64,000 nucleotides of DNA. Source: Arenicola marina. Its lineage: Eukaryota; Annelida; Polychaeta; Arenicolidae. A model generated the notes under the pieces. That model was not told where the DNA came from. It did no database searches and saw only the letters and a program-made list of their open reading frames with translations. Of this stretch, positions 6,309 to 61,345 are shown one piece after another (positions within the stretch are counted from its first letter, which is position 1; the number at the start of each line of letters is the position of its first letter). A program made the position numbers and the translations under genes. The stretch lies in NCBI GenBank assembly GCA_964019135.1, contig OZ025248.1, positions 45,935,670 to 45,999,669 on the forward strand, in the 5' to 3' direction.

Positions 6309-8221
6309 TACTGTACACCCTGGGTACGGTCACGTATCAAAGGTTACATCCGACTTACTGAACTTAAACAAGGCTGTTATGTAAAACGACAAAGACAATA
6401 TGCTTCTTTTGGAAGGGCCCAATTCCCAACGGTCCTAATATATATCAACTACGCAAGTTTTGATTCAAAATACAAGCACCTAAACTTGTCATAAAAAACT
6501 CGTAATACTAGTTTGATACTTGATATCACCGAGGCATCCATTTCCCTCGTCACGAATCGGAAGACCTGCATACCAGTCATTGATAAAGTGATATCTACAC
6601 GAACTCCTGGACACTCGACTGGGCAATCCCATTCCAATACCCCTTGCTCGTAATTGGATAAGAAGTAACAGTAACTAAATTCCAGAATGATTTAACACCC
6701 GCTCAAATCTTCGGAAACCGAGCCTGGGACTTTACAAAGTACCAAATTAGTACGCTGTGTATACAATAAAATCAAACGTTATGCAAAAAATAATCTCGAT
6801 GCTGAGTTTACTACACGTTTTTTTACATCCTACCGGGTTGCTTTCCACATTAATTGCTCATTTCATTCACAAACGGTACATCACGACCGTCATATACAAA
6901 GAATATTTATTTGGCGTTAGGCCCAAAGAGCATAGGCCCTTGAGATGCTTCGCAACCCGACAGTAAGACAGACATCACTTTCCAAAGAACTGTCCATAGG
7001 TTAAATCCAATTTCAGGTCACGTGGTCACTGCTTGGTTGCCGAGATCAATATCACTTGTCGGGATAACATTCAGTAGTTATCTTCGAGTTTCTAAACCAT
7101 TCAGCATTCACGTTCAACAAAGTCATTAACTATAATTACGCCCAGATCTCAGCAGATTGGAGACATCAGTGGCGGGGAACAGAAGATAATATTGCAGGAG
7201 AAAAGATCATTACAACCGTCTTGTATGTTGAAAACGAGTGATGCTTTCGACATATCATCCAAGTGTGGATCAGCGACCGACCCATTCCGTGCAGGATCTT
7301 AGTGACGGCATCAATATGAACATCAGTGGTAACTACCACTGCATGGCCCTACCAAGACCTGCTCAATGCCACATCACACAGGCCAGGACTGCACAACACA
7401 CGTCAAGAGTAGCTTTCTAGGAATGCCTTCAATTGGACCGTTGCTGCCACTATAAATAGCACTGAACACATTTTGTTACATTTTGTTACATTTTCCAATT
7501 ATAAGGTTTCCATTCTTACAGAAACAGAAATCTAGTGGTCAACACAGGGAGGAAGCAAGGTAAAGTTCACTATATCACACATATCATCCGCGCCATAAGA
7601 ACGGCTCAAAGAATACCAAGCACTGATACATGCTTGGGTGCAATTTTACATGGTACCTTTCTTCTCGCCTACACTTCAGCAACCACAAGCCGCACAAGGC
7701 TACATTCATTCGGTATAAATAGCTCATCAAATATCAATGCATCGAATCTACAAACTATGCTACCACTATACATAGGACACTAGCTAGTATTACAAAAAAC
7801 AAACTACATCAGTTTCAGGACATACTGGCTTATAATGAACATATTCTGCCTCAATGTACAAGACTAAGTACATAACAGACATGACGGTGCAAACTATCAA
7901 TCTAACATTGAATCGAAGATGCATCTTGCTCCAGTTGACTGCTCCTGGTGCCTGTGCTGTGCGAACCCTCCGAAGGGTGTGGGCGAAGCCACACTGCAGG
8001 CCAACCCCTTCCGCCACGTCCCAGCACGCGCAATCAACCAATCAGACAAGAGACCTTTTTTCGCGAAGTATGATCCAATGAAAATACTAGAAATAAAGCG
8101 GACACTGACCCATCGGTCGGCCGTCCCTTCTTTTTCATTGCTACAGTCCATTAAAGTATCACAGGGTATTGAGGAGTGAGGGGGAGGGGGTCACACGGCA
8201 ATGAGACGCCGCGCTGAGGGG
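6309..8221. other. 3' flank of the Mondo-like gene, probable 3' UTR in part
   Basis: No coding feature is supported. On the gene's strand (minus) the first canonical AATAAA downstream of the stop that I can find is at about 6,911-6,906. The 3' UTR could therefore extend about 1.3 kb, though this is not proven. Confidence 0.35.
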
Positions 8222-8430
8222 TCATGACTCCAGCAGAGAGTGCAGGTCATCCACTGAGGTGTTGACCGGTGGCAAGGCGGCAGCGCCCGGCGAGAGGTCC
8301 AGCAAGGCCCCTCGAGCCCCCTCCTGGACAGTCAGACCGAGGGACGCCTCTCGGATCTCCGCTTCTAGCCGATCAGGTGTCGTCATCACTGACGTGCTGG
8401 TACTGAGGTGACGCAGCAAGTTGAAGGCGG
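8222..8430 (-). CDS. Mondo: Mondo-like gene, last coding exon
   Basis: Acceptor TTTGATTGCAG, then (T)AFNLLRHLSTSTSVMTT and a 50-residue acidic tail ending in DDLHSLLES and a TGA stop at 8,224-8,222. Confidence 0.88.
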
Positions 8431-11400
8431 CTGCAATCAAAGACATAATGAACCCTAATAAGTTGCAGCTCAACATTCTAACCAAGAGGACAAAACTATT
8501 CATCTGCAAATGTAAGCATAGATGAGAAACATGTACAATTATATTTATAAAATTCATGTGTCGAAGGGTGAGTACAAGGAGTATTAATAACGAATATGTC
8601 CAGTTTAATTTGTAATTAAAATTTCAAAGTGCTATTTTAACACATGTGGTGAGTTTCAAGAGTTCAAAGTAAGGTGCATTAAAACGTCACAGATCACAAT
8701 GAAACCCAGTTAGCTCAGCGGGTAGGCGAATTTGTCATCGTAGCGTTGCCCGTTCGATCTTGAACAATGATTTTCGATTTACAAATGGCAAGAAATTTCT
8801 CGGAATAACATGAAAAATGTTGTGCTCCCCACGGTCGTCAGTTTTTGGAGAACATCCGCATGTAGCCACTCTTTCTAACAATAAAACTATACTTACTTGG
8901 CCTGAGGGTAGTCAGCGAGCAATGCTCCTGCACCCAGGTCATCACAGATTTCCCGAAGTTTTCCATATTGCTAGTCACAACCGTCTGATTGTAGGACTCG
9001 AACAGAGGCCGGATTAACAAGCCAAACTACCAGGTTAAAGAAAACGTTGATCCCACGATGTAAAAGATCTATTCAATAAGCGGTGTATGACCAAAACACA
9101 GTCATATAAAGAAATTAATAAAACAGTTAAGACTGATAAGCAGGGTGCTCCACACTTTACAGAGTAGACAGACAAAGACACGGAAACTCTCAGGACAATG
9201 AAATTTTCGAATTATTTGTTTACTGTACGAGTTGAGGACGAAATCTATGCATAATCCTTACCTATGAACTGAGGCAAGTCTGAACAATGGTTTATCCGAT
9301 CTGTAGTTCGATTCTTATTCTCACAATACATAACCTGCCATGCTATTTAACAGAGCAGACGATGTTGTTTTTATCGTTCTCTCGTCAGTCGTGGTTCAAA
9401 ATATAGGTCAGGTTGGCAAAGTCCATCGCGTCATTTGACGAGGGTACCGAGGTTGAATGCAATGGTCAGGGGGTAGTGGTTTATCTGCTGTACCCACTTT
9501 TGCAGGAGGCGTTTGCTTTCGTGCAATGAATCCAAGTTTAGCCTCAATTGATATCAAACTGATTTCAAGTTCACTCTGGTCACTTTAGGTATGCGTCGAT
9601 GCTTAAAAACAAAGTTAATGATAACACGCTACAAAGGAATTCAAACCTATGACCCCTTACAGAGATGTAAATGGTATCACCCAGTGACGTCACAGTAAAC
9701 AGTGAATGGAGCCATCAAGCCGATCGGCTGCTTCGAAGTGCAGCAAAGCAACATTTGCTTGTAGTTTATTTGCATGTGTCTCAGGAAATGTGAGTTCACA
9801 TACGCTTATTAGGCCCAGACTTAAAAGTTCACACAGAAAGCATTTTTTTCCTCAAATCAGTGAATATTTACGAGAAATTTCGTTGTCCGGAGAGTTTCCG
9901 TTGCGACTATAGGTATAAATAAATGCAGAATCCTTCCCACACTTTATATATAGTCCACGGTGTTCCCTGGGATATGGCATGGTCTATGGCGAGTGACCGG
10001 CCTTCGTTAGACATTTTTGGAAATACAGGGTATGTCAAAATGTGTGTCGCATCGAATATGTCAAGATGTGCAAGGATACTATCCAAAATTTCCAGCATTT
10101 CTTGCTCCTTTCGCGGCTGTACTGCTCAAACATGGCCTCGACCTGGGCCGGATTACTGGGCCTGGTGTGCGTCAGCCCCGCCGCTGGGAGGCGCGTTTGG
10201 TACGTGCTGAAAGTACGAGTCAGACACCGGTTACAACCAGTACTTAATAGTAAACTCGAGTCGATGCGGCCGTTCCGTCGTCCACTGCTTTCAGTCGGAG
10301 ACTGACCTTGCAAGCAAGGCCATCTCCTGCTGGAAACGTACAGAAATTGCGTCCAGCAATTAGTGGTGCAGAGGGGAAGGAGAGCCAGGCCGGTGTAACG
10401 TGAAAAATAGAAACATAAAGCAGGGTAACATCACATGACTGAGGTCATCAGTCAGTGACAATATGCAACACGTGTCCGTCCTGGCAGAGGCGGGTCGAAA
10501 GGCCAATAGCAGTGACGGGAGAAGGGGATGTTGAGGCAGCACCCTTAAGGGACAATGGAGGACGCAGCCTGCCATGTCTGCCAGGACGGACAACCACGTG
10601 ATCGAGCACAACACAAGCCGGAGGCAGAGCACGTGGCCACACAGCGAGTGTCCCGCCTGGCACCAGCCAATGGGGGTCAACGCGGTGCCTCGGCCCGGAC
10701 GCGCTTACCAACCCAAATCAACTTACTTGATATCAGCAGTTAGAGCGCGGATTTCTACACGAATGTTTTCTGTCTCACGCTGAAGCTCTTTGTTTTCCAT
10801 CCTTAACTGGCGACAGTAGTCAACCGCTGAAAGAGAGAGAGATGCCATAGTACCCACATAATGGGGGTCAGTCCGTCAGGTAGTAGGTCGCATGTATGTC
10901 CCATCAAACGTTGCTGTGATACCTGTCTCTTTTTCATGTCTGTCACATTGTCTGGTCCACTACACAAAGGAGCACTATTAGACACATAGAATCACCAGCC
11001 TGAAATGTTGACATGGTTGACAAGTATGTAGTAAATTGGGGGTTCCCATGTTTACACATACTTTGTTTAGGGAAAGTCTTTATCCTAAAACAGATTAAAC
11101 CAGTTATTAAAGGACATTATCTTAGTTTACAATCATCAAAACATCTGAAAATGTAACGAAAGTTACTGGGAAACAAAATGTTAATTTAATGATTACAGAA
11201 ACATATATTGACCACTAACACAAATTACTCAATTTCCAATAATTGCTGTCAAAGTCAGTAAATGTTATGCTTAAGCCCAAAATAGCACAGTCACATTGTA
11301 TATTCAGACAATTGAAACAATATGTTCTACCCATATTGTACAATAAGATACTAATAAGAATTATGGCCTTATGAGCCAAAGCTATAAACATGTGGAGCTG

Positions 11401-14400
11401 AAAACACACCAATCAAGGCACACAATGCTATAGTATCACTGGCTTTAAACAAATACTATAATCACTGAATGTGTTTAACCGTCTTGGCTTTAACTTAGCT
11501 CTATTATATAATAATGTAATATGTGATAAGGAAAAAATGTATACTCTTATCTTATTGGTAAATTGGTTGCATATGGAAATAAATGTTTATGAATGCAATA
11601 CATATGAGCAAGTCAAAGTAGAAATGTGTTACTATTACTTGCGATCTTTGGTAAAAGTGACTTGCTACACCAGATGTACATTACAGAAGAGACACTTACT
11701 TTTGTTTAGGATTCCAGACTTGCTTTCTTTTCCGCCTGATTGAAGCGTCTCAGCCAATGAAGGCACACTGCTTTTCAGTTCATCAAAAGCATCCTACAAA
11801 TAACCAGAAAAGATTTGTTGCCAAATGTTTAAAGCTTTTAACGGCACATTGCTATGACAAGAACAATGTGCTAGTACCTAATGAAATGGCATCGTGAATA
11901 CCACCAGTGTCCATCATTCTGGCCCACTACATGTACAATATGACATTCTTACCTTAATTTTACCTCTCCTTTTTAACTCAGCATTGATGTGGGACGGCCG
12001 CTTATGTCGAGGAACCTTCACTTTGTTCGATCCTTCCCTGTTGATCACAATCCCCCCCCTGGGACTGTTGGGGTGGGAGTGCGAGGGTGAGGTGCTTGGG
12101 GTGAATGCTGGCGTAGTAGATGAGGTTGGCGATGGTGTAGGTAGTACTGGCACCCCTTGGTCTGGTGATGGCAGTGTTGGAGCTGCATCATGTGGGGGGG
12201 CCTCAAAGTGGAATGTCTGCAGCTGCTCCCTTACCAGCTCAGAGGATGCATCTGGCAGCCACAAGGCCAGGTCATCAAATGGGTGCACATCATCCCCACA
12301 CATCTGAAAGCCAAAGGATGTTCCATGGAATGTTATATTTGGCCCCAGGAATAACAGATAGGTACTGGTTGTTGTTGAACAGCCTAAATGGCTAAGATTA
12401 AGACAAAAACAAAGTTTGGCACTGCATAAAGCTGTAGGTACTAAATAATGAGATAAGCTGATGCATTTGGTCAGGAGAGTATACTGCTGATCGATGGTTT
12501 AATTATAGGAAATCTTCAATACTATCCTGCAGAGGCTATGAACAGTTTAGGCTATACCAGTAGGTATATGAAATGCACAAACTGGAAACATTCTGTGTAA
12601 ATCACACAATAACACAAAAGAAATCAATCTCTGTGTATAACTCTAGTCTCACTTGAAATAACACTTAACACTATTGCTTTGGTTATAAAACCGAACTAGC
12701 AAGAGTTCAGATTTAAGAGGGTATGATGGATCAATGTGGCTTGTATAATTAGTGACATTATGAGGCAAGTACATACCCAGGGTTCATACTGGCAAGGTTT
12801 GATCAAATTCAAGCCTTTTTAAGGCAAGCACTAGAAAAATTCAAGGACTTTTCAAGGACAATGTTTGCAAAATTTGGGATTCAATTTTACGCATACAATC
12901 TTTGATATGAAATAAGAATTTAGCATTAACTGGCGCCACTGCAGACTGCAGATAATTTTCGCTAGATGGCGCTACTGCAGATTTTTTTTTATCAACACAC
13001 AATAGATCTATGGCGGATGGGTCCAGTGGGTGAAAAACGTTACAGCTCCAAAATGTTGCAGTTTCCCCTTCCCTAATGGATATACCTTGATGGATAACAT
13101 GTAATAAGACTTACTTCATCATTTAAAACGTCACACTACCATTATCACCAATACGGCCATTTCACCTCTTGATGCTCCGTTTCGTGGTTTACCCATACCG
13201 TCTTGTTGTGCTGTTATTAAACAAGATACAGTTTCAACTAAGTTAAAATCACAAGGGTCTCGTGTAATGGAGCAAATAAAGAGGTATACATAAATCACGG
13301 CTGCAAATGGTGCACAGACAAAAATATTTACATAAACGAGGTGGCAGATATTATACGCCCCGACTATAGAGAAGCGGGCTGGCCTGGGGGCACTTGCGCC
13401 AAAAGATCATGGTGATAGGTTGCAGTTTATTATTTTTAAGACCAAAATCTAAAAAAAATTGACAAAAAGCTAGATCGAAGCTTAAGCTTATAATTTTGTT
13501 GACAGAAAGCTACAATTTTTTTACCTACATCATGTGCAAGATTAAGCTTACTTTAGATATGAAAAATAGATTGGCACATAAAGGAAAGTAAGCTTATGAA
13601 GTTATGATTGAATTGGTTGGGTCTCTGGAGTCTGGGTCCTGCAGCCTGTCGTAAATTTCCGAGGGCTCACTCCAATTTTAGCAAAAATATTAGCCAAAAA
13701 CAGTGTGAACGGCATTATGATTTTAGTAAAGAACTTTGCATGGATACCGTTGTGCCCCTAGAAAGTGGGCTTGCCTGGGGGCACTTGCGCCGAATGCTAT
13801 GCATAACGGCCGAACGGCATAACAGCCGAGTCGCTCTCACCACCCCCTACCATAGGTGGAGGGGGCGGGGCAGGGTTGGTGGAGCCGCCAGGGGATTAGT
13901 CCGATTTAGGGGGGGGGGGGGGGGGGGGGTCGAGAGGACCATCTGGCCAGTGTGACCGCGAGGGTATATTGCAGAGTTGTATACAACAGTCTGGGTTGGT
14001 GTGATCGATTGTATGGAAGAACAGGCAGCGAAAGTTTATAGAGAGTTATAGAGATTTAACAACAAATTTATTTAACATAGACCCACAACTCCTTTTATAC
14101 CCACTAGATCCATGATATCCATAATCAAACATTGGATTGCTGTACTGAAACCTTTAGGCAGGTAGACAGTGACAACCCCTAAAGACAACTTTGGCAAAGA
14201 ATAAGCAAGGATTTAATTACATGCCAATGTGACTATGGAGTTGTTATCAAAGGGCTACTGGTTCCAGATCACAGAGAAGTCATAACTAATTTAATAAGCC
14301 AGCGAATTTAACAAGTTGTTAAGTTATCAAACGATGTGGCGTCGTGTTGTGGAATGTTATAGATCTAATGCTGTTCTCAATTGGCAATATATGCGAGTTA

Positions 14401-15563
14401 TCCGCCAGTAAATGGGTGAAAACCAGAAATTAAACGACAATTCATAATCATAAACCAAAGTGCATGAAATTCGGGCCGCGTGAATATCGGCAAAAATCCT
14501 TGCCCTACACCCTCATTACCATTAAAATCCGGGTTATCAATGCTTATTATAGTAGATCTACAGGGCTCTAAAGCCAGTAAGGGATTCCCCCCAAAATGTG
14601 CAAAAAGTTATATTCCCTCAGGAAGCCTGACCACCAATCAGACACCCAATCCTCCAGGCGGGCAGACTAATCCCCCCACCACCCACCCCCTTCCCCTGTC
14701 CCCCCCACCCCCCTTAAATCCTTCGGCCGTTCGGCCAATTTGGGTGTACACCCTTGCGCCAAGGATCTACCCAGCTAAATGCCCCCAATGTGAACTGGTG
14801 ACAGCTCCGAGTGAGTACAAGGTCAAGGCCAACACACGTGATGCGATGCCCACGCCCCAGACACAGCCAAACCTGAGTCAGCTTCTCCCCCACCCCTTCC
14901 AGTTACCCCTCCCGCGCCTCTCCTCAGACAAGCCTACAGGCCACGAGTGAACATCCCTCTATCATCAGTGACTTGGGCCGAGAGCACGAGTGACGGGCAC
15001 CACCTCCATCTCTGAACAATCTCATTGGTTGGCAGTCTCCGTCTAGTCGCCAAACGTCCGCTGATTGGTTTACATGATTCTGACGTCACTCGGAGAGCAC
15101 GGAAAGTATAAATTCCGTGACTCGACACGCGCTCCTTTCTTGCCCAAATCGCTCTCGCCGAGAACGCAACTCGCAGGCAGCTCTGGCACATAATAATTTC
15201 GTTCGCCTCTTGTAAACAAATAATACACGTGGCCCCATTCGTGTTAAACAGGTCAAAAGGATGCCTGTATACACATGAAAGCCATATAAGATACATTAAT
15301 GCCAAACAACCTGGAATATGATAGAATTTAGATCTACCAAAGATTCCGTCACTGCCGATCCCTCGTCTGAGATGCATTTGTCTTACAAAATAGCCGTTAA
15401 GGTTGTACAAATTCCGTTAAAACACTAATGAAGTAAGACTCACCGATGTGATGCCAGTTGAATCTGCGTTTGGTTGTCGAAGGAGTTCATGATCTACCAG
15501 ATTAAAAGGAATATCCGACCAGATATCTTCCCTTCGCATGGCGAGAGTTCGCACGGCAGACAT
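8222..15563 (-). CDS. Mondo: Short Mondo/ChREBP-like bHLH-zipper transcription factor (7 exons, 376 aa)
   Basis: Exons in coding order: 15,563-15,444; 12,303-11,953; 11,793-11,700; 10,826-10,727; 10,206-10,080; 9,026-8,897; 8,430-8,222. Every intron is GT-AG, phases agree and the joined length is 1,131 nt. Residues 41-140 hold an acidic stretch (DDVHPFDDLALWLPD) and a Pro/Ser/Thr-rich linker. The basic region is SHINAELKRR with the His145-Glu149-Arg153 contacts expected for E-box binding. Helix 2 reads ILNKTVDYCRQL and a zipper follows to about 225. WKFWIFGLLIRPLFESYN (about 260-277), EHCSLTTLRP and LRHLSTSTS match the C-terminal dimerisation/cytoplasmic-localisation domain of MLXIP/MLXIPL, not the shorter Mlx version. 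Family role: dimerise with Mlx and activate carbohydrate-response genes. Full-length Mondo proteins are about 850-930 aa with N-terminal glucose-sensing regions; I find none here. An additional upstream promoter outside the window is possible. Confidence 0.85.
8706..8766 (+). repeat. tRNA-derived SINE remnant
   Basis: An A-box-like TAGCTCAGCGGGTA is followed about 30 nt later by a B-box-like CGTTCGATCTTGA. The rest does not fold into a tRNA cloverleaf, so this is more likely a decayed SINE head inside the last Mondo intron than a functional tRNA. Confidence 0.4.
8897..9026 (-). CDS. Mondo: Mondo-like gene, exon 6: core of the C-terminal domain
   Basis: Acceptor AACCTGGTAG, donor GTAAGTATAG, phase 0 to phase 1. 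Encodes FGLLIRPLFESYNQTVV and onward to WVQEHCSLTTLRP, the most family-specific stretch in the window. Confidence 0.9.
10080..10206 (-). CDS. Mondo: Mondo-like gene, exon 5: start of the C-terminal domain
   Basis: Acceptor GTACTTTCAG, donor GTATCC after ATA (weaker than the others). Encodes TYQTRLPAAGLTHT, a short linker, QVEAMFEQYSRERSKKCW and KFWI. The match to MLXIP/MLXIPL is strong at the WKFWI end. Confidence 0.85.
10727..10826 (-). CDS. Mondo: Mondo-like gene, exon 4: helix 2 and leucine zipper
   Basis: Acceptor TCTCTCTTTCAG, donor GTAAGTTGA. Encodes (T)VDYCRQLRMENKELQRET and onward to LTADI. The split codons on either side (A|CG and AA|C) give T and N without a stop. Confidence 0.85.
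11700..11793 (-). CDS. Mondo: Mondo-like gene, exon 3: helix 1, loop and start of helix 2
   Basis: Acceptor TTATTTGTAG, donor GTAAGTGTC, ends in phase 1. Encodes DAFDELKSSVPSLAETL, a Gly/Lys/Ser loop and ILNK. The loop has the length expected for the family. Confidence 0.8.
11953..12303 (-). CDS. Mondo: Mondo-like gene, exon 2: acidic and Pro-rich region plus basic region
   Basis: 117 codons between a GGCTTTCAG acceptor and a GTAAGAATG donor, phase 0 on both sides. It ends inside helix 1, right after the basic region SHINAELKRRGKIK. The exon opens with ATG, so it could also serve as a start. Confidence 0.8.
12304..15443 (-). other. First intron of the Mondo-like gene, with repeats
   Basis: No extra exon was recognised. 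It contains a start resembling a hAT-type element at about 12,778 (CAGGGTTCATAC), two direct copies of a GGGGGCACTTGCGCC motif (about 13,380-13,406 and 13,766-13,793), a 22-nt G tract near 13,908-13,929 and a Pro-rich plus-strand frame at 14,480-14,950 that I consider spurious. Confidence 0.5.
15444..15563 (-). CDS. Mondo: Mondo-like gene, first coding exon
   Basis: Forty codons from ATG (context CAGCAATGT) to a GTGAGT donor, phase 0. The peptide starts MSAVRTLAMRREDIWSDIPF. It is joined to the next exon by phase match and strand; no transcript is available. If wrong, this exon belongs to another gene and the Mondo gene starts elsewhere. Confidence 0.6.
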
Positions 15564-15680
15564 TGCTGTGACGCGCGCGCTACCTGGCGGCTGGCGGCTG
15601 CGCTACATGCTGCGCGATGTGGGCCATTCCGATTGGGCTGCTGAGAAGGGGGGTGTAGGTGTGACCCTGTCCTGCCAAGT
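15564..15680 (-). promoter_or_regulatory. CpG-rich presumed promoter/5' UTR of the Mondo-like gene
   Basis: Immediately upstream of the first ATG on the minus strand the DNA is locally CpG-rich (GCGCGCGTCAC, CGCCAGCCGCC). The surrounding DNA is AT-rich. No TATA box is obvious. The call rests on composition and position only. Confidence 0.3.
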
Positions 15681-17729
15681 ATATTCTATAATGACACTGA
15701 AACATTGCTTATTGATTCGCAATCACATCCACGGCTATTACCTAAAAATGATCCATTTAGATTTGTGAGTTTACTGACTTTTATTGAAAGTGCGATCAAA
15801 CGAACCTGTCCGCACCCCCCTCGAATTTGCCCCTGGGTTTTATAGACCGGTCCTGTCTGCTGAACTATGCACCAAGCTTACTAGATCTACTTAGAGGGTG
15901 GGGAATGCTCGCAAACCGGATCCAACTGGTTGCAAAGAATGGTCTCTGACGTATAGTCGTTTAGGACTGGGGTTGCCGAAGGGTCAAGGAATAGATGGTC
16001 ATTTGAGGCCATTTCGATGTGAGATCGAAGACGTCTCACTAGATTTATCTTTTAATAGTGGCCAAGCAAATTGAAAGTAATATTATTTGCCACATTACTT
16101 TTAGCCTGACAACAAGACGTTACTGTCGTTAGACAGTTGGGGGGGGGTGTGGTCGACTCCCCCCTCCCCCCCCCCCCAACTGTCTAAGGACAGTAACGTC
16201 TTGTTTTAAGGCTACATTATTTTTATGATCCAATATCGATCTAGATCTATAGATCTAGATCTGTAAGCTTAAATCCAATAAATTCGCGACTTGTCTTAAT
16301 TCTAGATTAAGCGTAAGCTGATTACATTCTGTGAGAATCATATCCCGGCCTATGCCATAAATATCTCTTTTAGATTTATATGAGTCAAAATTAACCAGCC
16401 TGATGCAGGATCTGTTCAACCCATTTTTGGCACATTTAAAGATATTAGGATTCCCACCCCCTCCTCTCTGCCTGTATCATGAGCCAATACATTTTTCTCC
16501 TTGGCTTACTTTACGAACAATCAAATGCCTATTGGCCACATCTGATTACTACCATGTATAGGCCTGCGCTTTGATCATAATCTATGGTAGTCGGGGGTAA
16601 TGTACACAAAGACATTTACGGTACCGACCCGGAAATAGAAAGGCTCCGACCCGGAAATAAAAAGGCTCAGAGCCTAAGAAAAACCCCAGAGTCACAAAGC
16701 GATAAAAAAACATTTTAATGAACCGAAATCCGGTCATGCGCATAACACTTGCCAGGCGACGCACTAAGCGCGTGTGAAAACAAACGCACTACACGTGGCC
16801 CATTTGTTTAGGTTACACACCAATAGGTCGTGCGTAGAAAAGTATATGGTGTCAAGTAGTGCCTAAAATATGATCGTATATCAGGATTGGATGGTTACTG
16901 GTTACTTCTTTCTTTGTATATATTGTTTCTTTTAATATGAATAGGCATTGCCTAAGTTGCGAGCTCACCCAAATTAAAAAATAATAAAGGCTTAGCTCTT
17001 AAACCTGCTGTATCAACTGCAGCAGCCAGCTGTCCTAATCTTATAGGTTTCTAGAAAACTAGACCCAAAACCAACACGGGTGTAGTTGGTTTGAGGTTGA
17101 GTTAGCTTGGGGTCGAGTTGGCTTGGGGTTGAGAAGGTGATGGGTCGGGCGTGTCGTGGGTCGAGTTGACTAGATGCTGTCTTATATCTGCTGTATTAGC
17201 TGAAGTAGTTTATATTTTTAAAGCTGCCTGTACTGAAATATCTTATTTAAGTTATAGAAATAATGTTTTTATCTATTTCTTTTAATTAAAAAAAAGATGG
17301 ATGGCTTAGTTGTTGAACAGTAATATTTGGGCTTAAGATCACATATGCAGAGAAATACAAAAATAAGTAGTTGCTTGAGTCTATAATTAATCATATTAGA
17401 TCTATTTTATGATAATTAATATCTTATTAATTTTTAATTTTCTGATCCTTTTTTCCTTTTGCTAAAATTATATATAGGTTGATGAGATATTTTTAAATCA
17501 AGTTTAAAGCTGGTCATAGATTTATAGCAATCTATACCTATCTATGTACCAGGTATATATTCATAACAAAGCTACACCCTGTCACAGAAAGTGCCCCAAT
17601 ATGGCAAAAAAAAAATTGATGACAACATGTCCATAAATATTTCTATTTATATTAGAAGGACTTTAGTAGATCTATATCATTTCTATTAAAACTATTTTCG
17701 GAGGTAACTCCTTCATGAAAAACATATTT
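15681..17729. other. Intergenic, AT-rich, no gene seen
   Basis: Contains one foldback element (16,102-16,214, listed separately) and runs built from AGATCTA. No supported coding feature. Confidence 0.5.
16102..16214. mobile_element. Small foldback (hairpin) element
   Basis: AACAAGACGTTACTGTC and then TAGACAGTTGGGGG are mirrored by CCCCCAACTGTCTA and GGACAGTAACGTCTTGTT. Arms of about 40 bp flank a short GC-rich centre containing GTCGAC. AGCCT and AGGCT extend the mirror outward with mismatches. Confidence 0.6.
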
Positions 17730-35611: not shown

Positions 35612-38600
35612 CTGGCAGATCGGAAGCCCTGCCCCCCTCTGGAACAATCTCCACTGGCAGATCGGGAGCCCTGCCCCCCTCTGGAACAATCTCCACTGGC
35701 AGATCGGGAGCCCTGCCCCCAAGTGGAACAATCTCCACTGGCAGATCGAGAGCCCGGCCCCCCTCTGGAACAATCTCCACTGGCAGATCGGGAGCCCTGC
35801 CCCCCTCTGGAACAATCTCCACTGGCAGATCGGGAGCCCTGCCCCCAAGTGGAACAATCTCCACTGGCAGATCGAGAGCCCGGCCCCCCTCTGGAACAAT
35901 CTCCACTGGCAGATCGGGAGCCCTGCCCCCCTCTGGAACAATCTCCACTGGCAGATCGGGAGCCCTGCCCCCCTCTGGAACAATCTCCACTGGCAGATCG
36001 GAAGCCCTGCCCCCCTCTGGAACAATCTCCACTGGCAGATCGGGAGCCCTGCCCCCAAGTGGAACAATCTCCACTGGCAGATCGAGAGCCCGGCCCCCCT
36101 CTGGAACAATCTCCACTGGCAGATCGGGAGCCCTGCCCCCCTCTGGAACAATCTCCACTGGCAGATCGGGAGCCCTGCCCCCAAGTGGAACAATCTCCAC
36201 TGGCAGATCGAGAGCCCTGCCCCCCTCTGGAACAATCTCCACTGGCAGATCGGGAGCCCTGCCCCCCTCTGGAACAATCTCCACTGGCAGATCGGAAGCC
36301 CTGCCCCCCTCTGGAACAATCTCCACTGGCAGATCGGGAGCCCTGCCCCCAAGTGGAACAATCTCCACTGGCAGATCGAGAGCCCGGCCCCCCTCTGGAA
36401 CAATCTCCACTGGCAGATCGGGAGCCCTGCCCCCCTCTGGAACAATCTCCACTGGCAGATCGGGAGCCCTGCCCCCAAGTGGAACAATCTCCACTGGCAG
36501 ATCGGAAGCCCTGCCCCCCTCTGGAACAATCTCCACTGGCAGATCGGGAGCCCTGCCCCCAAGTGGAACAATCTCCACTGGCAGATCGAGAGCCCGGCCC
36601 CCCTCTGGAACAATCTCCACTGGCAGATCGGGAGCCCTGCCCCCCTCTGGAACAATCTCCACTGGCAGATCGGGAGCCCTGCCCCCCTCTGGAACAATCT
36701 CCACTGGCAGATCGGGAGCCCTGCCCCCATCTGGAACAATCTCCACTGGCAGATCGGGAGCCCTGCCCCCCTCTGGAACAATCTCCAGTGGCAGATCGGG
36801 AGCCCTGCCCCCCTCTGGAATAATCTCCACTGGCAGATCGAGAGCCCTGCCCCCCTCTGGAACAATCTCCACTGGCAGATCGGGAGCCCTGCCTCCCTCT
36901 GGAACAATCTCCACTGGCAGATCGGGAGCCCTGCCCCCAAGTGGAACAATCTCCAATGGCAGATCGGGAGCCCTGCCCCCCTCTGGAACAATCTCCGCTG
37001 GCAGATCGGAAGCCCTGCCTCCCTCTGGAACAATCTCCACTGGCAGATCGGGAACCCTGCCCCCAAGTGGAAGAATCTCCACTGGCAGATCGGGAGCCCT
37101 GCCCCCCTCTGGAACAATCTCCACTGGCAGATCGGGAGCCCTGCCCCCAAGTGGAACAATCTCCACTGGCAGATCGGGAGCCCTGCCCCCCTCTGGAACA
37201 ATCTCCACTGGCAGATCGGGACCCCTGCCACCCTCTGGAACAATCTCCACTGGCAGATCGGGAGCCCTGTCCCCAAGTGGAACAATCTCCACTGGCAGAT
37301 CGGGAGCCCTGCCTCCCTCTGGAACAATCTCCACTGGCAGATCGGGAGCCCTGCCCCCCTCTGGAACACTCTCCACTGGCAGATCGGGAGCCCTGCCCCC
37401 AAGTGGAACAATCTCCACTGGCAGATCGGGAGCCCTGCCCCCCTCTGGAACAATCTCCAGTGGCAGATCGGGACCCCTGCCTCCCTCTGGAACAATCTCC
37501 ACTGGCAGATCGGGAGCCCTGCCCCCCTCTGGAACAATCTCCACTGGCAGATCGGGAGCCCTGCCCCCCTCTGGAACAATCTCCACTGGCAGATCGGGAG
37601 CCCTGCCCCCCTCTGGAACAATCTCCACTGGCAGATCGGGACCCTGCCCCCCTCTGGAACAATCTCCACTGGCAGATCGGGAGTCCTGCCCCCAAGTGGA
37701 ACAATCTCCACTGGCAGATCGGGAGCCCTGCCCCCCTCTGGAACAATCTCCAGTGGCAGATCGGGACCCCTGCCTCCCTCTGGAACAATCTCCACTGGCA
37801 GATCGGGAGCCCTGCCCCCCTCTGGAAGAATCTCCACTGGCAGATCGGGAGCCCTGCCCCCCTCTGGAACAATCTCCACTGGCAGATCGGGAGCCCTGCC
37901 CCCCTCTGGAACAATCTCCACTGGCAGATCGGGACCCCTGCCCCCCTCTGGAACAATCTCCACTGGCAGATCGAGAGCCCTGCCCCCAAGTGGAACAATC
38001 TCCACTGGCAGATCGGGAGCCCTGCCTCCCTCTGGCACAATCTCCACTGGCAGATCGGGAGCCCTGCCCCCCTCTGGAACAATCTCCACTGGCAGATCGG
38101 GAGCCCTGCCCCCCTCTGGAACAATCTCCACTGGCAGATCGGGACCCCTGCCCCCCTCTGGAACAATCTCCACTGGCAGATCGGGAGCCCTGCCCCCAAG
38201 TGGAACAATCTCCACTGGCAGATCGGGAGTCCTGCCCCCCTCTGGAACAATCTCCACTGGCAGATCGGGAGCCCTGCTCCCCTCTGGAACAATCTCCACT
38301 GGCAGATCGGGAGCCCTGCCCCCCTCTGGAACAATCTCCACTGGCAGATCGGGAGCCCTGCCCCCAAGTGGAACAATCTCCACTAGCAGATCGGGAGCCC
38401 TGCCTCCCTCTGGAACAATCTCCACTGGCAGATCGGGAGCCCTCCCCCCCTCTGGAACAATCTCCACTGGCAGATCGGGAGCCCTGCCCCCCTCTGGAAC
38501 AATCTCCACTGGCAGATCGGGACCCCTGCCCCCCTCTGGAACAATCTCCACTGGCAGATCGGGAGCCCTGCCCCCAAGTGGAACAATCTACACTGGCAGA

Positions 38601-41472
38601 TCGGGAGCCCTGCCTCCCTCTGGAACAATCTCCACTGGCATATCGGGAGCCCTGCCCCCCTCTGGAACAATCTCCGCTGGCAGATCGGAAGCCCTGCCCC
38701 CCTCTGGAACAATCTCCACTGGCAGATCGGGAACCCTGCCCCCAAGTGGAACAATCTCCACTGGCAGATCGGGAGCCCTGCCCCCCTCTGGAACAATCTC
38801 CACTGGCAGATCGGGAGCCCTGTCACCCTCTGGAACAATCTCCACTGGCAGATCGGGAGCCCTGCCCCCCTCTGGAACAAACTCCACTGGCAGATCGGGA
38901 GCCCTGCCCCCAAGTGGAACAATCTCCACTGGCAGATCGGGAGCCCTGCCCCCCTTTGGAACAATCTCCACTGGCAGATCGGGAGCCCTGCCCCCAAGTG
39001 GAACAATCTTCACTGGCAGATCGGGAGCCCTGCCCCCCTCTGCAACAATCTCCACTGGCAGATCGGGAGCCCTGCCCCCCTTTGGAACAATCTCCACTGG
39101 CAGATCGGGAGCCCTGCCCCCCTCTGGAACAATCTCCACTAGCAGATCGGGAGCCCTGCCTCCCTCTGGAACAATCTCCACTGGCAGATCGGGAGCCCTG
39201 CCCCCCTCTGGAACAATCTCCACTGGCAGATCGGGAGCCCTGCCCCCCTCTGGAACAATCTCCACTGGCAGATCGGGAGCCCTGCCCCCAAGTGGAACAA
39301 TCTCCACTGGCAGATCGGGAGCCCTGCCCCCCTTTAGAACAATCTCCACTGGCAGATCGGGAGCCCTGCCCCCAAGTGGAACAATCTTCACTGGCAGATC
39401 GGGAGCCCTGCCCCCCTCTGCAACAATCTCCACTGGCAGATCGGGAGCCCTGCCTCCCTTTGGAACAATCTCCACTGGCAGATCGGGAGCCCTGCCCCCA
39501 AGTGGAACAATCTCCACTAGCAGATCGGGAGCCCTGCCTCCCTCTGGAACAATCTCCACTGGCAGATCGGGAGCCCTGCCCCCCTCTGGAACAATCTCCA
39601 CTGGCAGATCGGGAGCCCTGCCCCCCTCTGGAACAATCTCCCCTGGCAGATCGGGAGCCCTGCCCCCCTCTGGAACAATCTCCACTGGCAGATCGGGACC
39701 CCTGCCCCCCTCTGGAACAATCTCCACTGGCAGATCGGGAGCCCTGCCCCCAAGTGGAACAATCTCCACTGGCAGATCGGGAGCCCTGCCTCCCTCTGGA
39801 ACAATCTCCACTGGCAGATCGGGAGCCCTGCCTCCCTCTGGAACAATCTCCACTGGCAGATCGGGAGCCCTGCCCCCCTCTGGAACAATCTCCACTGGCA
39901 GATCGGGACCCCTGCCCCCCTCTGGAACAATCTCCACTGGCAGATCGGGAGCCCTGCCCCCAAGTGGAACAATCTCCACTGGCAGATCGGGAGCCCTGCC
40001 CCCCTCTGGAACAATCTCCACTGGCAGATCGGGACCCCTGCCCCCCTCTGGAACAATCTCCACTGGCAAATCGGGAGCTCTGCCCCCAAGTGGAACAATC
40101 TCCACTGGCAGATCGGGAGCCCTGCCCCCCTCTGGAACAATCTCCACTGGCAGATCGGGACCCCTGCCCCCCTCTGGAACAATCTCCACTGGCAGATCGG
40201 GACCCCTGTCCCCAAGTGGAACAATCTCCACTGGCAGATCAGGAGCCCTGCCCCCCTCTGGAACAATCTCCACTGGCAGATCGGGAGCCCTGCCCCCCTC
40301 TGGAACACTCTCCACTGGCAGATCGGGAGCCCTGCCCCCAAGTGGAACAATCTCCACTGGCAGATCGGGAGCCCTGCCCCCCTCTGGAACAATCTCCAGT
40401 GGCAGATCGGGAGCCCTGCCTCCCTCTGGAACGATCTCCACTGGCAGATCGGGAGCCCTGCCCCCCTCTGGAACAATCTCCACTGGCAGATCGGGAGCCC
40501 TGCCCCCAAGTGGAACAATCTCCACTGGCAGATCGGGAGCCCTGCCCCCCTCTGGAACAATCTCCACTGGCAGATCGGGACCCCTGCCCCCCTCTGGAAC
40601 AATCTCCACTGGCAGATCGGGAGCCCTGCCCCCAAGTGGAACAATCTCCACTGGCAGATCGGGAGCCCTGCCTCCCTCTGGAACAATCTCCACTGGCAGA
40701 TCGGGAGCCCTGCCCCCCTCTGGAACAATCTCCACTGGCAGATCGGGAGCCCTGCCCCCCTCTGGAACAATCTCCACTGGCAGATCGGGACCCCTGCCCC
40801 CCTCTGGAACAATCTCCACTGGCAGATCGGGAGCCCTGCCCCCAAGTGGAACAATCTCCACTGGCAGATCGGGAGCCCTGCCTCCCTCTGGAACAATGTC
40901 CACTGGCAGATCGGGAGCCCTGATCCCCTCTGGAACAATCTCCACTGGCAGATCGGGACCCCTGCCCCTCTCTGGAACAATCTCCACTGGCAGATCGGGA
41001 GCCCTGCCCCCAAGTGGAACAATGTCCACTGGCAGATCGGGAGCCCTGCCTCCCTCTGGAACAATCTCCACTGGCAGATCGGGAGCCCTGCCCCCCTCTG
41101 GAACAATCTCCACTGGCAGATCGGGAGCCCTGCCCCCCTCTGGAACAATCTCCACTGGCAGATCGGGACCCCTGCCCCCCTCTGGAACAATCTCCACTGG
41201 CAGATCGGGAGCCCTGCCCCCAAGTGGAACAATCTCCACTGGCAGATCGGGAGCCCTGCCTCCCTCTGGAACAATCTCCACTGGCAGATCGGGAGCCCTG
41301 ATCCCCTCTGGAACAATCTCCACTGGCAGATCGGGAGCCCTGCCCCCAAGTGGAACAATCTCCACTGGCAGATCGGGAGCCCTGCCCCCCTCTGGAACAA
41401 TCTCCACTGGCAGATCGGGAGCCCTGCCCCCAAGTGGAAGAATCTCCACTGGCAGATCGGGAGCCCTGCCCC
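35612..41472. repeat. 42-bp minisatellite, about 139 copies (5.86 kb)
   Basis: Each unit is GATCGGGAGCCCTGCCCCC, then CTCTGG or AAGTGG, then AACAATCTCCACTGGCA. Variant positions are GGGAGC/GAGAGC/GGAAGC/GGGACC and CCCCCTCT/CCCCAAGT/CTCCCTCT. Nearly all units are exactly 42 bp. One 41-bp unit near 37,640 lost a C. With 14 codons per unit and few stop-prone triplets, long frames are open on both strands, up to 2,043 codons on plus and 1,035 on minus. The peptides change at the 41-bp unit (WNNLHWQIGSPAPL becomes GTISTGRSGALPPS), as expected for non-coding DNA. The array ends in a C tract at 41,470-41,490. Confidence 0.95.
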
Positions 41473-41489
41473 CCCCCTCCCCCCCCCCC

Positions 41490-43840
41490 CGCACTAAACC
41501 CCATCCTCCCCCAAGCGCACACACATTTTGTTCCTGGTATCTCATTATCCCCTCCCACTTCAAAATATCTAAAATGTTAGGGGTCATTTTCGAAATCGGC
41601 GCGGCAAGTGTACACATTTCCAAACCCCTAGTAGAAGGTTCTTTCTGGCTTGAACAACAACGCAATTCTTACGGCATCATTGAATGTATTCCGGTGGGTA
41701 AGCCTTAGCATACGGTTCGGTGGTTGGGAGACAACGATATTTAATGTGTGCAAAATGCTTTTTCTATAGAGAGCATTTTACACACAACAAACTTTGCTTA
41801 TGTAGGATGTTATTGCGGCCCTTGACACCATACGATATGAACATAGGTACCCTCCTTACAATTCCTCTGCACTAGGGCATATTATTCCTCCTGACACTTT
41901 GGGTGTGGCACTCGTGACCGGCAGCTCCCATAGACTGTCCGTGAAGTGATGGCTTACTTTCTGCCACGTGACGTAGTAGGGACCTCTCGAGGAATACGGT
42001 AGGGAAAGGGGCAGGACAGGATACCTTGGTATTCAGCACTGTTACTCTCGGAATAATGCACTCGCATGTTCTTTCGTGAGGTCATGTGAATGTCATACTG
42101 GACATGGTTCTGGAAAAACACAAATGGATCTCAAAAATCAAGCTCTGTTAACTTGGTCACCATTTGCGTATTCACAGGATTCGGTACTGAAAATTATATT
42201 CCATACTTATTTAAATAATCCCTTTATATGGCCCGCTGCAGCTGGCAATATGAAGTTGAACAATCGCGTATACACTTCTGTTGACTTTGACACTGGTTTC
42301 CACTCGTCGACAACTTCAACTCAATCACACCTTCCAATTTATTCGAAAAAATATATTTCTAAAAGGGCTGATCCAAAGTGTATGAGAGTAGCATTTATAC
42401 CTGTCTAACGTATTACGCAACTGGGATAATGAAATGACCATTTCTATCCCATTAATATTGGACATTCTAAATAAAAAAAATGGGGGCCGGCAAGACCAGG
42501 AAAGCGGTACCCTTACACGGTCGCGCTGGGTGCGTTCCATCAAACCACATCACAGATATCACATGGTATCTAAATTAACTTTCAGATTTGGTAGCGAGTA
42601 TTGCACACACCAGGGCGACAAAGACAATGGGAGTGCTATAATGCGTGTATGTGTGGGGAAGGTGGGGGGGGGGCGTATCGTTGGGCTCACTCACTTGGAA
42701 GATGGAAGAAAATCGAAATGCGCAGAGACGTAACGCAGAAATAAAATAAAAAGGGAGAAACCGTTAATGCCGTCTAATATACACAGGCCCCTGGCAGCCG
42801 ATGATTGCCCCCCCCCCCCCCGCCCCCCGTCCCGGGCACCCCCTCCCCCCAGCAGGGCTGCAGGGACTCCCCGTGTCTGGGTGGCAGATGTGCTCTCCCC
42901 ACAAAGGGCCGGCATCCCCAGACATCGCCTTCCCTCTCAATGCAGTCTGTACACCGTATTTGGTCAACTAATTCAACCATGAAGTAACGCAAGGCGCAGT
43001 TGATATAGTGACAAATAGCGGTGTCACCCAATACATCCACCCCCCATGCCCATACCCCACCCACCCCTCAGCGACACCCATACCTCATCCACCCCCAACC
43101 ACCCCCCGCCCACACTCCTTACCTTCGCCGCCCTTATATCTGTGTTTTTTTCACCGAAGAGACGAACTCGAACCAGTGGTTGGGGCACATACCGGAGGGG
43201 GGTGGGGGAAGAGGGGCAGGGGGGAGGGGAGGTGACACACCGGGGGAGCCATGCCGGCTAAGCTGGAGATTCCGAGAGTCATTCCAGGAAGATCTGTGGG
43301 GGCCGGTGGGGGCCGGTGGGGTGAGCGAGGGTGATGGCAGGTGATAAGAAATCAGTAGCCAAAAAAGTTCCTTAGTAGTAGGAATATGCAGGATAAGCAG
43401 TAACTAGAAGTTTCTATACGTGCGGGCGTTACCCACGCCCGATACCGTAAAGGGGAGGGGGGGGGTACTGGCTCGTGCCCCAACCCCATTGACCACCAGA
43501 GACCCGGAACGGCTCAAGACATACTCAAGACTGGAGGATTGGTTAGAGGGGGATTGAAAAAAACACCCTGTACCCACCATCTAACCCCCCCCCCCCTCCT
43601 CTGCGCCACCCCCACCCGCCGCCAGGACCCACCTGGCCCCCCTTCGATCGCACCTGCCTTCCATCACAACCCGCATCCCCGATGTATGTAAGATCGTACT
43701 GAGGTTAAGCCGGTGTGGTGTTCCCATCAACAGTACACGGTTCCCACCATCGGCTCCGCCCTTGAGCTTACAAGTAGTTAAAGGATCAATCACAAATCGT
43801 TTAAGACATTAAAGAGTTTATTTTACTTCGTTTTTTTTTT
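41490..43840. other. Intergenic, with G- and C-rich tracts
   Basis: C-rich runs at 42,806-42,850, 43,030-43,135 and 43,585-43,625, G-rich runs at 43,195-43,250 and 43,450-43,466, and an A/T tract at 43,830-43,845. The open frame at 42,076-42,408 starts at GTG and has no motif. No gene is supported. Confidence 0.45.
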
Positions 43841-43920
43841 TTTTATTTGTGCAAAACGTGGTTGTGACGAAACCAGTAAGGCGAGCGGAACAAAAGCCGC
43901 AAGACATTACTCATGTAATG

Positions 43921-45738
43921 TCGCCTCCAGTCTCTGTTCCTGTCGCCTCCAGTCTCTGTCCCTGTCGCCTCCAGCCTCTGTCCCTGTCGCCTCCAGCCTC
44001 TGTCCCTGTCGCCTCCAGCCTCTGTCCCTGTCGCCTCCAGTCTCTGTCCCTGTCGCCTCCAGCCTCTGTCCCTGTCGCCTCCAGCCTCTGTCCCTGTCGC
44101 CTCCAGCCTCTGTCCCTGTCGTCTCCAGCCTCTGTCCCTGTCGCCTCCAGCCTCTGTCCCTGTCGCCTCCAGCCTCTGTCCCTGTCGCCTCCAGTCTCCA
44201 GCCTCTGTCCCTGTCGCCTCCTGTCTCCAGCCTCTGTCCCTGTCGCCTCCAGCCTCTGTCCCTGTCGCCTCCAGCCTCTGTCCCTGTCGCCTCCAGCCTC
44301 TGTCCCTGTCGCCTCCAGCCTCTGTCCCTGTCGCCTCCAGCCTCTGTCCCTGTCGCCTCCAGCCTCTGTCCCTGTCGCCTCCAGCCTCGATCCTCTGTCC
44401 CTGTCGCCTCCTGTCTCCAGCCTCTGTCCCTGTCGCCTCCAGTCTCCAGCCTTTGTCCTTGTCGCCTCCTATCTCCAGCCTCTGTCCCTGTCGCCTCCAG
44501 CCTCTGTCCCTGTCGCCACCAGTCTCCAGCCTCTGTCCCTGTCGCCTCCAGTCTCCACCCTTTTTCCCTGTCGCCTCCAGTATCCAGCCTCTGTCCCTGT
44601 CGCCTCCAGTCTCCAGCCTCTGTCCCTGTCGCCTCCTATCTCCAGCCTCTGTCCCTGTCGCCTCCAGTCTCCAGCCTTTGTCCTTGTCGCCTCCTATCTC
44701 CAGCCTCTGTCCCTGTCGCCCCCAGTCTCCAGCCTCTGTCCCTGTCGCCTCCAGTCTCCAGCCTCTGTCCCTGTCGCCTCCAGTCTCCAGCCTCTGTCCC
44801 TGTCGCCTCCAGTCTCCAGCCTCTGTCCCTGTCGCCTCCAGTCTCCAGCCACTGTCCCTGTCGCCTGCAGTCTCCAGCCTCTGTCCCTGTCGCCTCCAGT
44901 CTCCAGCCTCTGTCCCTGTCGCCTCCAGTCTCCAGCCTCTGTCCTTGTCGCCTCCTATCTCCAGCCTCTGTCCCTGTCGCCTCTAGTCTCCAGCCTCTGT
45001 CCCTGTCGCCTCCAGTCTCCACCCTTTTTTTCCTGCCGCCTCCTGTCTCCAGCCACTGTCCCTGTCGCCTCCAGTCTCCAGCCTCTGTCCCTGTCGCCTC
45101 CAGTCTCCACCCTTTTTCCCTGTCGCCTGCAGTCTCCACCCTTTTTCCCTGTCGCCTCCTGTCTCCAGCCTCTGTCCCTGTCGCCTCAAGTCTCCAGCAT
45201 CTGTCCCTGTCGCCTCCAGTCTCCAGCCTCTGTCCCTGTCGCCTCAAGGCTCCAGCCTCTGTCTCTGTCGCCTCAAGTCTCCAGCCTCTGTCCCTGTCGC
45301 CTCCAGCCTCTGTCCCTGTCGCCTCAAGTCTCCAGCCTCTGTCTCTGTCGCCTCAAGTTTCCAGCCTCTGTCCCTGTCGCCTCCAGTCTCCACCCTTTTT
45401 CCCTGTCGCCTCCTGTTTCCAGCCTCTGTCCCTGTCGCCTCCAGTCTCCAGCCTCTGTCCCTGTCGCCTCCTATCTCCAGCCTCCGTCCCTGTCGCCTCC
45501 AGCCTCTGTCCCTGTCGCCTCCAGGCTCCAGCCTCTGTCCCTGTCGCCTCCTATCTGCAGCCTCCGTCCCTGTCGCCTCCAGCCTCTGTCCCTCTCGCCT
45601 CCAGTCTCCAGCCTTTGTCCCTGTCGCCTCCAGTATCCAGCCTCTGTCCCTGTCGCCTCTAACCTCCGTCCCTGTCGCCTCCAGCCTCCGTCCCTGTCGC
45701 CTCCAGCCTCTGTCCCTGTCGCCTCCAGTCTCCAGCCT
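43921..45738. repeat. 22/29-bp minisatellite
   Basis: The basic unit CCTCTGTCCCTGTCGCCTCC plus AG (22 bp) dominates the first 480 bp. From about 44,400 most units add TCTCCAG and become 29 bp. CCTTTTTCCC and CTATCTCC variants are interspersed. Neither length is a multiple of three, yet a 659-codon frame is open because the unit has no stop in any plus-strand frame. It is not evidence of a protein. Confidence 0.92.
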
Positions 45739-46229: not shown

Positions 46230-47160
46230 TCACTGTTGTACAATCCTAACAGATAATTCTTGACATATAAAAAAAACACCCTTCAAACTATACGTAAAAA
46301 ACGTTTCTCTCACAATCAGTGGCAGTGAATTAATAACAGCAGGCAGGCTATTTCTTAAACATCGTTTGGCAAACTCATGTCTTGTGAAGTTAACAGTATA
46401 GTTACTATTGTTTCGTGTATCATATGGATGAATGTTCGAATTTTGATTTAGAAGCATAGTGGAAAAATATATTGGTAATTTACTGTGCGTTATATTGGCT
46501 GAGACCGATTATTCTGATCGCTTTCTTTTGTAATTTTAAAAGATCGTTTGGCCAATTTTCGAGAGAGTAAGTCTGTGTGGCAGTGCCACCCTAAACGTCT
46601 GTCAATGGTTACGCCGAGAAGATTAAAACTTTCAACGCAATTAATTTCTACGCTATTCATGAAGATTTGAGGGATTGCAAGTTTCTTTTGTGGCATATAT
46701 TTTTACTTTGTAGTATTAGGGACAATTTGTTTACTTTGAGCCAAATATTGACTTTCTCTAGTTCATGATTTATATCATGATAGTCGTTTGATAGATTTGG
46801 GGTGTTTAACGTGCTAGATAACGTGGTGTCGTCTGCATATATAATTGCTTTAAATAGTTCGCTGGCCTTAGAAATATCATTTATGTATATTATAAATAAT
46901 AAGGGATCAAGAATTGACCCTTGAGGCACACCCGTACTAATGCTATGGCAATTAGACTTAGTATCTTCGAGTTGAACATACTGTGTACGGTTTCTCAAAT
47001 AACTTTCTATTAGTTTTAAGGCTATTCCCGTTATCCCACAGTGCCTAAGTTTGTGTAGAAGTATTTTATGTCAAGAGTGTCAAATGCTTTTGATAAATCA
47101 AGGAAAATAGTGATGGGAGTTTCACCTTTGTCTAAACTGGCAGACCAATTGAGCATAGGC
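46230..47160 (-). pseudogene. LINE reverse transcriptase and C-terminal remnant
   Basis: Minus-strand motifs in order: TIFLDLSKAFDTLD (motif A) near 47,100, GVPQGSILDPLLFIIYIND (motif B) and YADDTTL with the intact catalytic Asp pair (motif C) near 46,840. Then FNLLGVTIDRRLGWHCH and a C-terminal HPYDTRNNSNY...RNSLPAVINSLP block. A frameshift and a stop lie between motifs A and B. The pattern fits jockey/CR1/I-type elements more than L1, but the exact clade is not resolvable by eye. Confidence 0.75.
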
Positions 47161-48728: not shown

Positions 48729-48928
48729 NNNNNNNNNNNNNNNNNNNNNNNNNNNNNNNNNNNNNNNNNNNNNNNNNNNNNNNNNNNNNNNNNNNNNNNN
48801 NNNNNNNNNNNNNNNNNNNNNNNNNNNNNNNNNNNNNNNNNNNNNNNNNNNNNNNNNNNNNNNNNNNNNNNNNNNNNNNNNNNNNNNNNNNNNNNNNNNN
48901 NNNNNNNNNNNNNNNNNNNNNNNNNNNN
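48729..48928. other. Scaffold gap of exactly 200 N
   Basis: A round gap length usually means unknown true size. The left flank ends CTGGTCGCATGG and the right flank starts CTGGTCGAATGG, so a short repeat borders the gap and the missing piece may be a tandem array. Confidence 0.99.
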
Positions 48929-59722: not shown

Positions 59723-60245
59723 TTGGATCACAATGAATGTTTACTTTTTGTTGTAATAGTAACTTTAAGCGTTTGCCTAATGAAGGTCCAGCCGACTGTG
59801 TCAAAGGCTTTTTCAAAGTCAATTGACAGAAATAACCGTTCTGCATGTTCTTCCTTAGCCAAGTCCCTAATGGTTGTTAGTTTGACAATATTCTCGCCGA
59901 TGTAACTTCCCTTCATAAAGCCAATCTGATCCCGATGTATTAATTTTTCTAGCGTGGACTTTATTCTCTTGGCAACACTTTTTGTAATAAGTTTATAATC
60001 TGTATTTAAAAGAGAAATAGGTCGCCAGTGTTTAAGGTAAGTACTATCTTTACCTGGTTTGGGGATCAGCGTTAAAACTCCTTGCTTTGTCATAACGACA
60101 TATTGCCTTTCTCGTATGCTAAGTTAAATGCATTAATTAGTGGACGCTTGATATCCCCCCAAAATACTCTGTAGAATTCGTAAGGTAACCCATCGGGACC
60201 TGGAGATTTGTTATCTCCATTTGGTTCTAAGTTTGCAGAAATATC
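59723..60245 (-). pseudogene. L1-like LINE, reverse transcriptase first half
   Basis: On the minus strand: NKSPGPDGLPYEFYRVFW, then a stop, GVLTLIPKPGKDSTYLKHWR, PISLLNTDYKLITKSVAKRI, LIHRDQIGFMKGSYIGENI and LFLSIDFEKAFDTVGW (motif A, Asp present). These are the standard N-terminal blocks of an L1/Tx1-type reverse transcriptase. Confidence 0.8.
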
Positions 60246-61256: not shown

Positions 61257-61257
61257 A

Positions 61258-61345
61258 GGGGCGGATCCAGAAAAGCTGGATAGAAGGGGGGGGGGGTGGT
61301 TTCAGGGTCGGATCCAGATATGCTGGATAGGGGGGGCCCCCCTTG
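61258..61345 (-). mobile_element. hAT-like element end(s)
   Basis: GGGGCGGATCCAGAAAAGCT and the similar GGTCGGATCCAGATATGCTG are the common hAT end motif, given twice in tandem and separated by G tracts. The opposite end was not found. Confidence 0.4.

Follow-up and report, generated by a model that had tools for sequence, protein, structure and literature searches.

Can a Mondo-type transcription factor be encoded without the region through which its relatives sense sugar? Mondo factors couple gene expression to sugar via their N-terminus, and the question is raised by a gene on the minus strand of a 64,000-nucleotide stretch of the Arenicola marina genome (contig OZ025248.1 of assembly GCA_964019135.1, positions 45,935,670 to 45,999,669; hereafter, the window). 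As judged from the sequence, and with about even confidence, we interpret it as encoding a Mlx/Mondo-subfamily protein that stands on the Mondo side and has diverged. On this reading the coding sequence is probably complete, with 376 codons (336 if translation begins at Met41), and includes neither the sugar-sensing module of Mondo conserved regions (MCRs) nor the long central region. The product most likely pairs with Mlx and is uncoupled from sugar; the main rival explanation is that a longer gene has its 3′ half here.

Gene structure and family identity

Splicing of seven minus-strand exons between positions 15563 and 8222 (Table 1) yields 1131 nt, i.e., 376 codons and a stop. All six introns have GT-AG borders and consistent phases, with lengths, calculated from the exon coordinates, of 3140, 159, 873, 520, 1053 and 466 bp; the structure given in the original prediction was thus reproduced. 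Exon 2, which opens with an ATG (Met41) immediately past its acceptor, encodes part of the Pfam HLH match. The intron preceding exon 5 interrupts codon 222, which is aligned with ChREBP residue 729. An intron common to Mlxip, Mlxipl, Mio and Mlx is reported at human MLXIPL codon 728 (PMC4766361), and the two positions agree to within one codon. Exons 2-7 of this Mondo-like gene are solid.

Of the human sequences used for comparison, that of MLXIPL has the published residue at 24 of the 24 invariant positions given in PMC3323566. Pfam detects an HLH domain at residues 141-197 (E = 4.4e-12), and no other family above the cut-off in the 376-residue protein. By blastp, 94 of 226 aligned positions are identical to human ChREBP/MLXIPL (42%; E = 1e-46), and identity to human MLX is 30% over 178 positions (E = 1e-19). 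The affinity is clearest in the C-terminal DCD, which is 44% identical to that of ChREBP (52/119), 42% to MondoA and 26% to MLX (22/84). All eight residues published as invariant in the Mondo DCD, namely L735, P736, W801, R812, P813, L819, L822 and P832 (PMC3323566), are kept. Over the bHLH-zipper the corresponding identities are 43%, 37% and 35%. The description of these two domains as clearly Mondo therefore holds for the DCD, and less so for the bHLH-zipper. Human ChREBP and MLX are themselves 43% identical over the latter; because the predicted protein is no nearer than this to the human Mondos, it would be either a paralogue that has diverged or an orthologue that evolves fast.

Column by column, the protein keeps 33 of the 49 residues that all three human proteins have in common. 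At 109 columns MLX departs from both human Mondos, and the protein agrees with MLX at only 11 of these; where both Mondos share a residue that MLX lacks, it has that residue at 37 of 86. H145, E149 and R153 fall on invariant columns, and by the His/Glu/Arg rule we take them to be the E-box contacts of the bHLH domain. This comparison with three human sequences, which is not a phylogeny, places the predicted protein on the Mondo side, yet strongly diverged. A search of solved structures at E values up to 1 returned 26 sequences, with bHLH relatives such as Max; none is a Mondo or Mlx chain. Relatives were also sought in contig collections, where 4 pattern matches in viral contigs and 98 in genome contigs gave none that was confirmed.

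Beyond the DCD, the C-terminal tail (8222-8332, minus strand) is longer than in the human Mondos. The protein terminates in VDDLHSLLES, with an LxxLL motif (LHSLL) at residues 370-374; in other non-vertebrate Mondos a nuclear-receptor box is described in the central region (PMC3323566).

Search for the sugar-sensing region

All six frames of the window were scanned with ten patterns for MCR I to V, MCR6 and the LxQLLT nuclear-receptor box, a scan that is blind to patterns split by introns. The MCR6 and LxQLLT patterns were used as printed in PMC3323566, and the remainder were derived from its text and from the human sequence. Nine of the ten patterns had no match in the 64 kb, including the MCR6 signature [ST]DTLF[ST]; the tenth, a loose P.W..F fragment, had four scattered matches. 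When the N-termini of MLXIP and MLXIPL were compared with the window by tblastn, no MCR was matched, and only proline-rich or chance matches were obtained, the best being at 13943-13830 (E = 7e-4, running through a stop) and at 42807-42905 on the plus strand (E = 0.007). As a control of sensitivity, the C-terminus of ChREBP was compared in the same way; it detected exons 2, 4, 5, 6 and 7 at E ≤0.1, i.e., five of the six conserved exons, and missed exon 3. MCR I-V, with their 16 invariant residues, are absent from the 376-residue model, and with the exception of P.W..F the window is negative by pattern and by tblastn. The claim that the protein lacks a glucose-sensing N-terminus was borne out, in that neither the predicted protein nor the rest of the window shows a recognizable one.

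The flanks were searched with Pfam on frames read through stops, on both strands at 1-5, 15.6-35.4 and 46.2-51.2 kb and on the minus strand at 51.2-53.6 and 56.4-63.9 kb. Only reverse transcriptase exceeded the cut-off (7.4e-11 and 2.4e-21); matches below it were to RVT_1 (2e-5), Exo_endo_phos_2 (0.0046) and Cytadhesin_P30 (6.7e-6).

These searches bear on the main rival, which we regard as a serious though minority possibility: that exons 2-7 belong, as its last six exons, to a long Mondo gene of the ordinary kind, with its MCR exons beyond the window or misassembled and exon 1 either an alternative first exon or no exon at all. In the major animal lineages other than ctenophores the Mlx subfamily is reported to comprise two genes, MLX and MLXIP/Mondo (PMC7003098), from which one Mondo per invertebrate is expected. 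The weak support for exon 1 also speaks for a long gene, as do the tandem arrays upstream, of a kind that breaks assemblies, and the gap at 48729-48928. On the other hand, such a gene leaves no MCR trace in the window, and it requires an intron of more than 48 kb, which is out of line because the other introns measure 159-3140 bp. In addition, the bHLH-zipper has diverged beyond what we would presume for a sole orthologue.

The 5′ end of the gene

Exon 1 is one of six phase-compatible minus-strand candidates above position 12400 that have an ATG, at least 90 nt of open frame and an in-phase GTRAGK donor, and it is the nearest of them to exon 2; the plus strand of the whole window, used as a control, yields four. 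Of 4710 stop-free stretches of 40 codons, 12% equal or exceed the codon score of exon 1 in its true frame. Real exons of the Mondo-like gene that were held out rank at 2-35%, which makes this test weak in both directions. The CpG observed/expected ratio is 0.87 at 15501-16000 and 1.14 at 15001-15500. The reported CpG-rich spot is in this sense a fair description, but it is not unique, with 1.06 at 16501-17000 and 0.83-0.94 at 8501-10500. A near-perfect inverted repeat lies just upstream of exon 1, at 16102-16214, with 46-nt arms that are 93% complementary, a 21-nt spacer and runs of G/C.

A variant of our interpretation, which we consider rather unlikely, is that the gene is short but is transcribed from intron 1, at about 15.0 kb, and translated from Met41 into 336 residues, exon 1 being spurious. 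Here the ATG directly past the exon 2 acceptor is consistent with such a start, and so are the CpG ratio of 1.14 and the promoter-like cluster of two CCAAT boxes, a CRE and an E-box in intron 1 (Table 1), which could start a transcript that uses Met41 and is a lead only. However, the CRE is not specific, because its word, TGACGTCA, occurs at nine sites in the window, about 16-fold above first-order expectation outside the tandem arrays. This variant also presumes a leader exon and its donor, whereas exon 1 is in the correct phase and is followed by a good donor. With either start, the MCRs are lacking.

Relation to known members of the subfamily

The exon 4 ATG of human ChREBP encodes M178, in MCRIV. 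ChREBP-beta, an isoform of a longer gene, starts at this ATG, which is described as shared by tetrapods and lacking from fish (PMC4766361), and is without the LID and the nuclear export signals (PMC8102921). It retains everything past residue 178, including MCR6 (250-258), MCRV and the central region. The predicted protein resembles ChREBP-beta in missing the inhibitory LID and in its possible alternative first exon, but differs in that MCR6, MCRV, the nuclear-receptor box and the long central region are missing as well; about 140 residues precede its bHLH domain, and none of them resemble MCR6, MCRV or the central region. The likeness to ChREBP-beta put forward in the original prediction is therefore correct as to the inhibitory part and is not supported as stated. 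An orthologue of ChREBP-beta was rejected, since neither the model nor the window contains MCR6, MCRV or the central region.

With full-length Mondo, MLXIP (MondoA) and MLXIPL (ChREBP-alpha), the protein shares the bHLH-zipper and a DCD with all eight invariants. Unlike them, it has no MCR I-V, MCR6, nuclear-receptor box or long central region, and its C-terminal tail is longer. In size and in order, i.e., a short N-terminus followed by bHLH-zipper and DCD, it resembles MLX and Bigmax (human MLX has 298 residues), but it has the Mondo-type LP, WKFW, LRP and STSTS motifs that human MLX lacks. A plain Mlx was rejected on the DCD, with its 26% identity and Mondo-type motifs. An MLX and MLXIP pair is reported in Eumetazoa and sponges, and a single gene in ctenophores, by a screen for MLX/MLXIP in which Lottia homologues were required (PMC7003098); the parts of that paper drawn on here mention no third type of the subfamily. 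Among the matches listed in a search of the open-licence literature, no title or abstract describes an invertebrate Mondo gene without MCRs.

Proposed mode of action

The gene likely originated when the 3′ half of a Mondo gene was duplicated and then gained a new 5′ end. Its product would dimerize with Mlx via the zipper and the DCD, and would bind CACGTG-type E-boxes through His145, Glu149 and Arg153. DNA binding would not depend on glucose-6-phosphate, since the protein lacks the inhibitory and sensing regions, and output would be set by the activity of the promoter and the supply of Mlx.

If this is correct, we lean slightly towards weak constitutive activation, through acidic and hydrophobic patches (EDIWSDIPFNLVDHELL, HPFDDLALWLPD) that were read by eye in residues 1-74, where 14 D/E face 5 K/R. 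Mondo proteins without the N-terminus are reported to activate constitutively, and MCR6 has been proposed as the activation domain (PMC3323566). Given the same premise, competition with full-length Mondo comes just short of an even chance. The two outcomes are nearly balanced because MCR6 is absent and the 9aaTAD pattern has no match, despite the constitutive activity of Mondos that lack the N-terminus. Taken by itself, a natural competitor, i.e., a short protein that takes up Mlx and E-boxes and so lowers the sugar response of full-length Mondo, is an explanation to which we assign a low probability. It is favoured by the retained dimerization and DNA-contact residues and by the lack of both the proposed activation domain (PMC3323566) and a 9aaTAD match. 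It is disfavoured by the acidic/hydrophobic patches of residues 1-74 and the C-terminal LxxLL motif, and the full-length Mondo of this genome that it calls for is presumed. The confidences given to the rivals overlap, in that this explanation and the intron 1 start are variants of our own interpretation.

Several points weigh against that interpretation. The gene model is drawn from genomic sequence alone. Exon 1 is plausible and weakly supported, and its 40 codons have no recognized homologue. The 376 residues contain no match to the published 9aaTAD pattern, which speaks against the proposed activation. Two proline-rich stretches match the MLXIP N-terminus (E = 7e-4 and 0.007), matches that we read as composition and not homology. 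The absence of the MCRs applies within a window that ends at 64000 and includes the 200-base gap, with Pfam coverage interrupted at 35.4-46.2 and 53.6-56.4 kb. Lastly, 16 of the 49 columns constant in the three human proteins are altered, so that pairing with Mlx is not assured. The same 16 changes might also indicate a decaying partial duplicate, i.e., a pseudogene; this was judged highly improbable in view of the intact frame and splice sites across seven exons, and all eight DCD invariants and the DNA-contact residues are kept.

Surroundings of the gene

Remains of non-LTR retroelements, consisting of reverse transcriptase and a sub-cut-off endonuclease-like piece, are found on the minus strand at 46657-47070, 59728-60123, 60505-61301 and 62455-62973. 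Much of the remaining upstream 48 kb is tandem array. The array at 35612-41474 (5.9 kb) has 139.6 copies of a 42-bp unit with 92% matches, a unit that keeps frames open on both strands for up to about 2077 codons. Frames are likewise held open in the arrays at 43919-45733 and 53808-56307, which have units of 22/29/44 bp and 40 bp. Outside the tandem arrays, the word TAGATCTA is 27-fold above first-order expectation in the window; an excess of this word is usual in gastropods. Nothing in the window was matched by Rfam or by a tRNA scan.

CACGTG occurs 26 times in the window (11.7 expected) and seven times at 7-17 kb (1.7 expected). Autoregulation, suggested by the E-boxes near the gene, was dropped as a candidate, the whole window being in excess as well. 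Degenerate tandem-E-box (ChoRE-like) matches number 12 in the window against 18.3 expected from shuffles, i.e., fewer than by chance, and no exact ChoRE was found in the search near the alternative first exon.

Table 1. Features of the Mondo-like gene and its vicinity (window coordinates)
Feature	Position	Strand	Remarks
Degenerate tandem-E-box (ChoRE-like) matches	16735-16797		three, 23 bp apart, about 1.2 kb upstream of exon 1; 1, 2 and 2 mismatches; lead only
TATA-like motif 5′ of exon 1	15838-15844	-	
Exon 1 (putative)	15444-15563	-	40 codons, MSAVRTLAMRREDIWSDIPFNLVDHELLRQPNADSTGITS; donor GTGAGT; phase 0 junction with exon 2
Promoter-like cluster in intron 1	15029-15231	-	two CCAAT boxes (first bases 15069 and 15029), CRE (15081-15088), E-box (15226-15231)
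Exon 2	11953-12303	-	acidic patch, Pro/Ser/Thr-rich stretch, bHLH basic region; acceptor TTTCAG, donor GTAAGA
Exon 3	11700-11793	-	bHLH helix 1 end, loop, helix 2 start
Exon 4	10727-10826	-	HLH end and zipper
Exon 5	10080-10206	-	DCD start (LP motif, WKFW)
Exon 6	8897-9026	-	DCD core (LIRPLFES ... WVQEHCSLTTLRP); tblastn E = 5e-10
Exon 7	8222-8430	-	DCD end, C-terminal tail, stop
Nearest AATAAA 3′ of the stop	6906-6911	-	possible polyadenylation signal

Implications

If the locus is the tail of a normal gene, the finding is an ordinary one. In mammals, loss of the inhibitory part creates a potent constitutive isoform, which is reported as tetrapod-specific (PMC4766361, PMC8102921). It is conceivable, although we think it unlikely, that an invertebrate has a dedicated gene for an Mlx-sized Mondo without MCRs, i.e., a third kind of Mlx-subfamily member that is uncoupled from sugar sensing by gene structure, independently of tetrapod ChREBP-beta, and that perhaps feeds on or dampens full-length Mondo through the surrounding E-boxes. 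Were this true, a separate invertebrate gene would mean that the sensing module has been detached independently, and the protein would provide a natural test of the bHLH-zipper and DCD acting alone.

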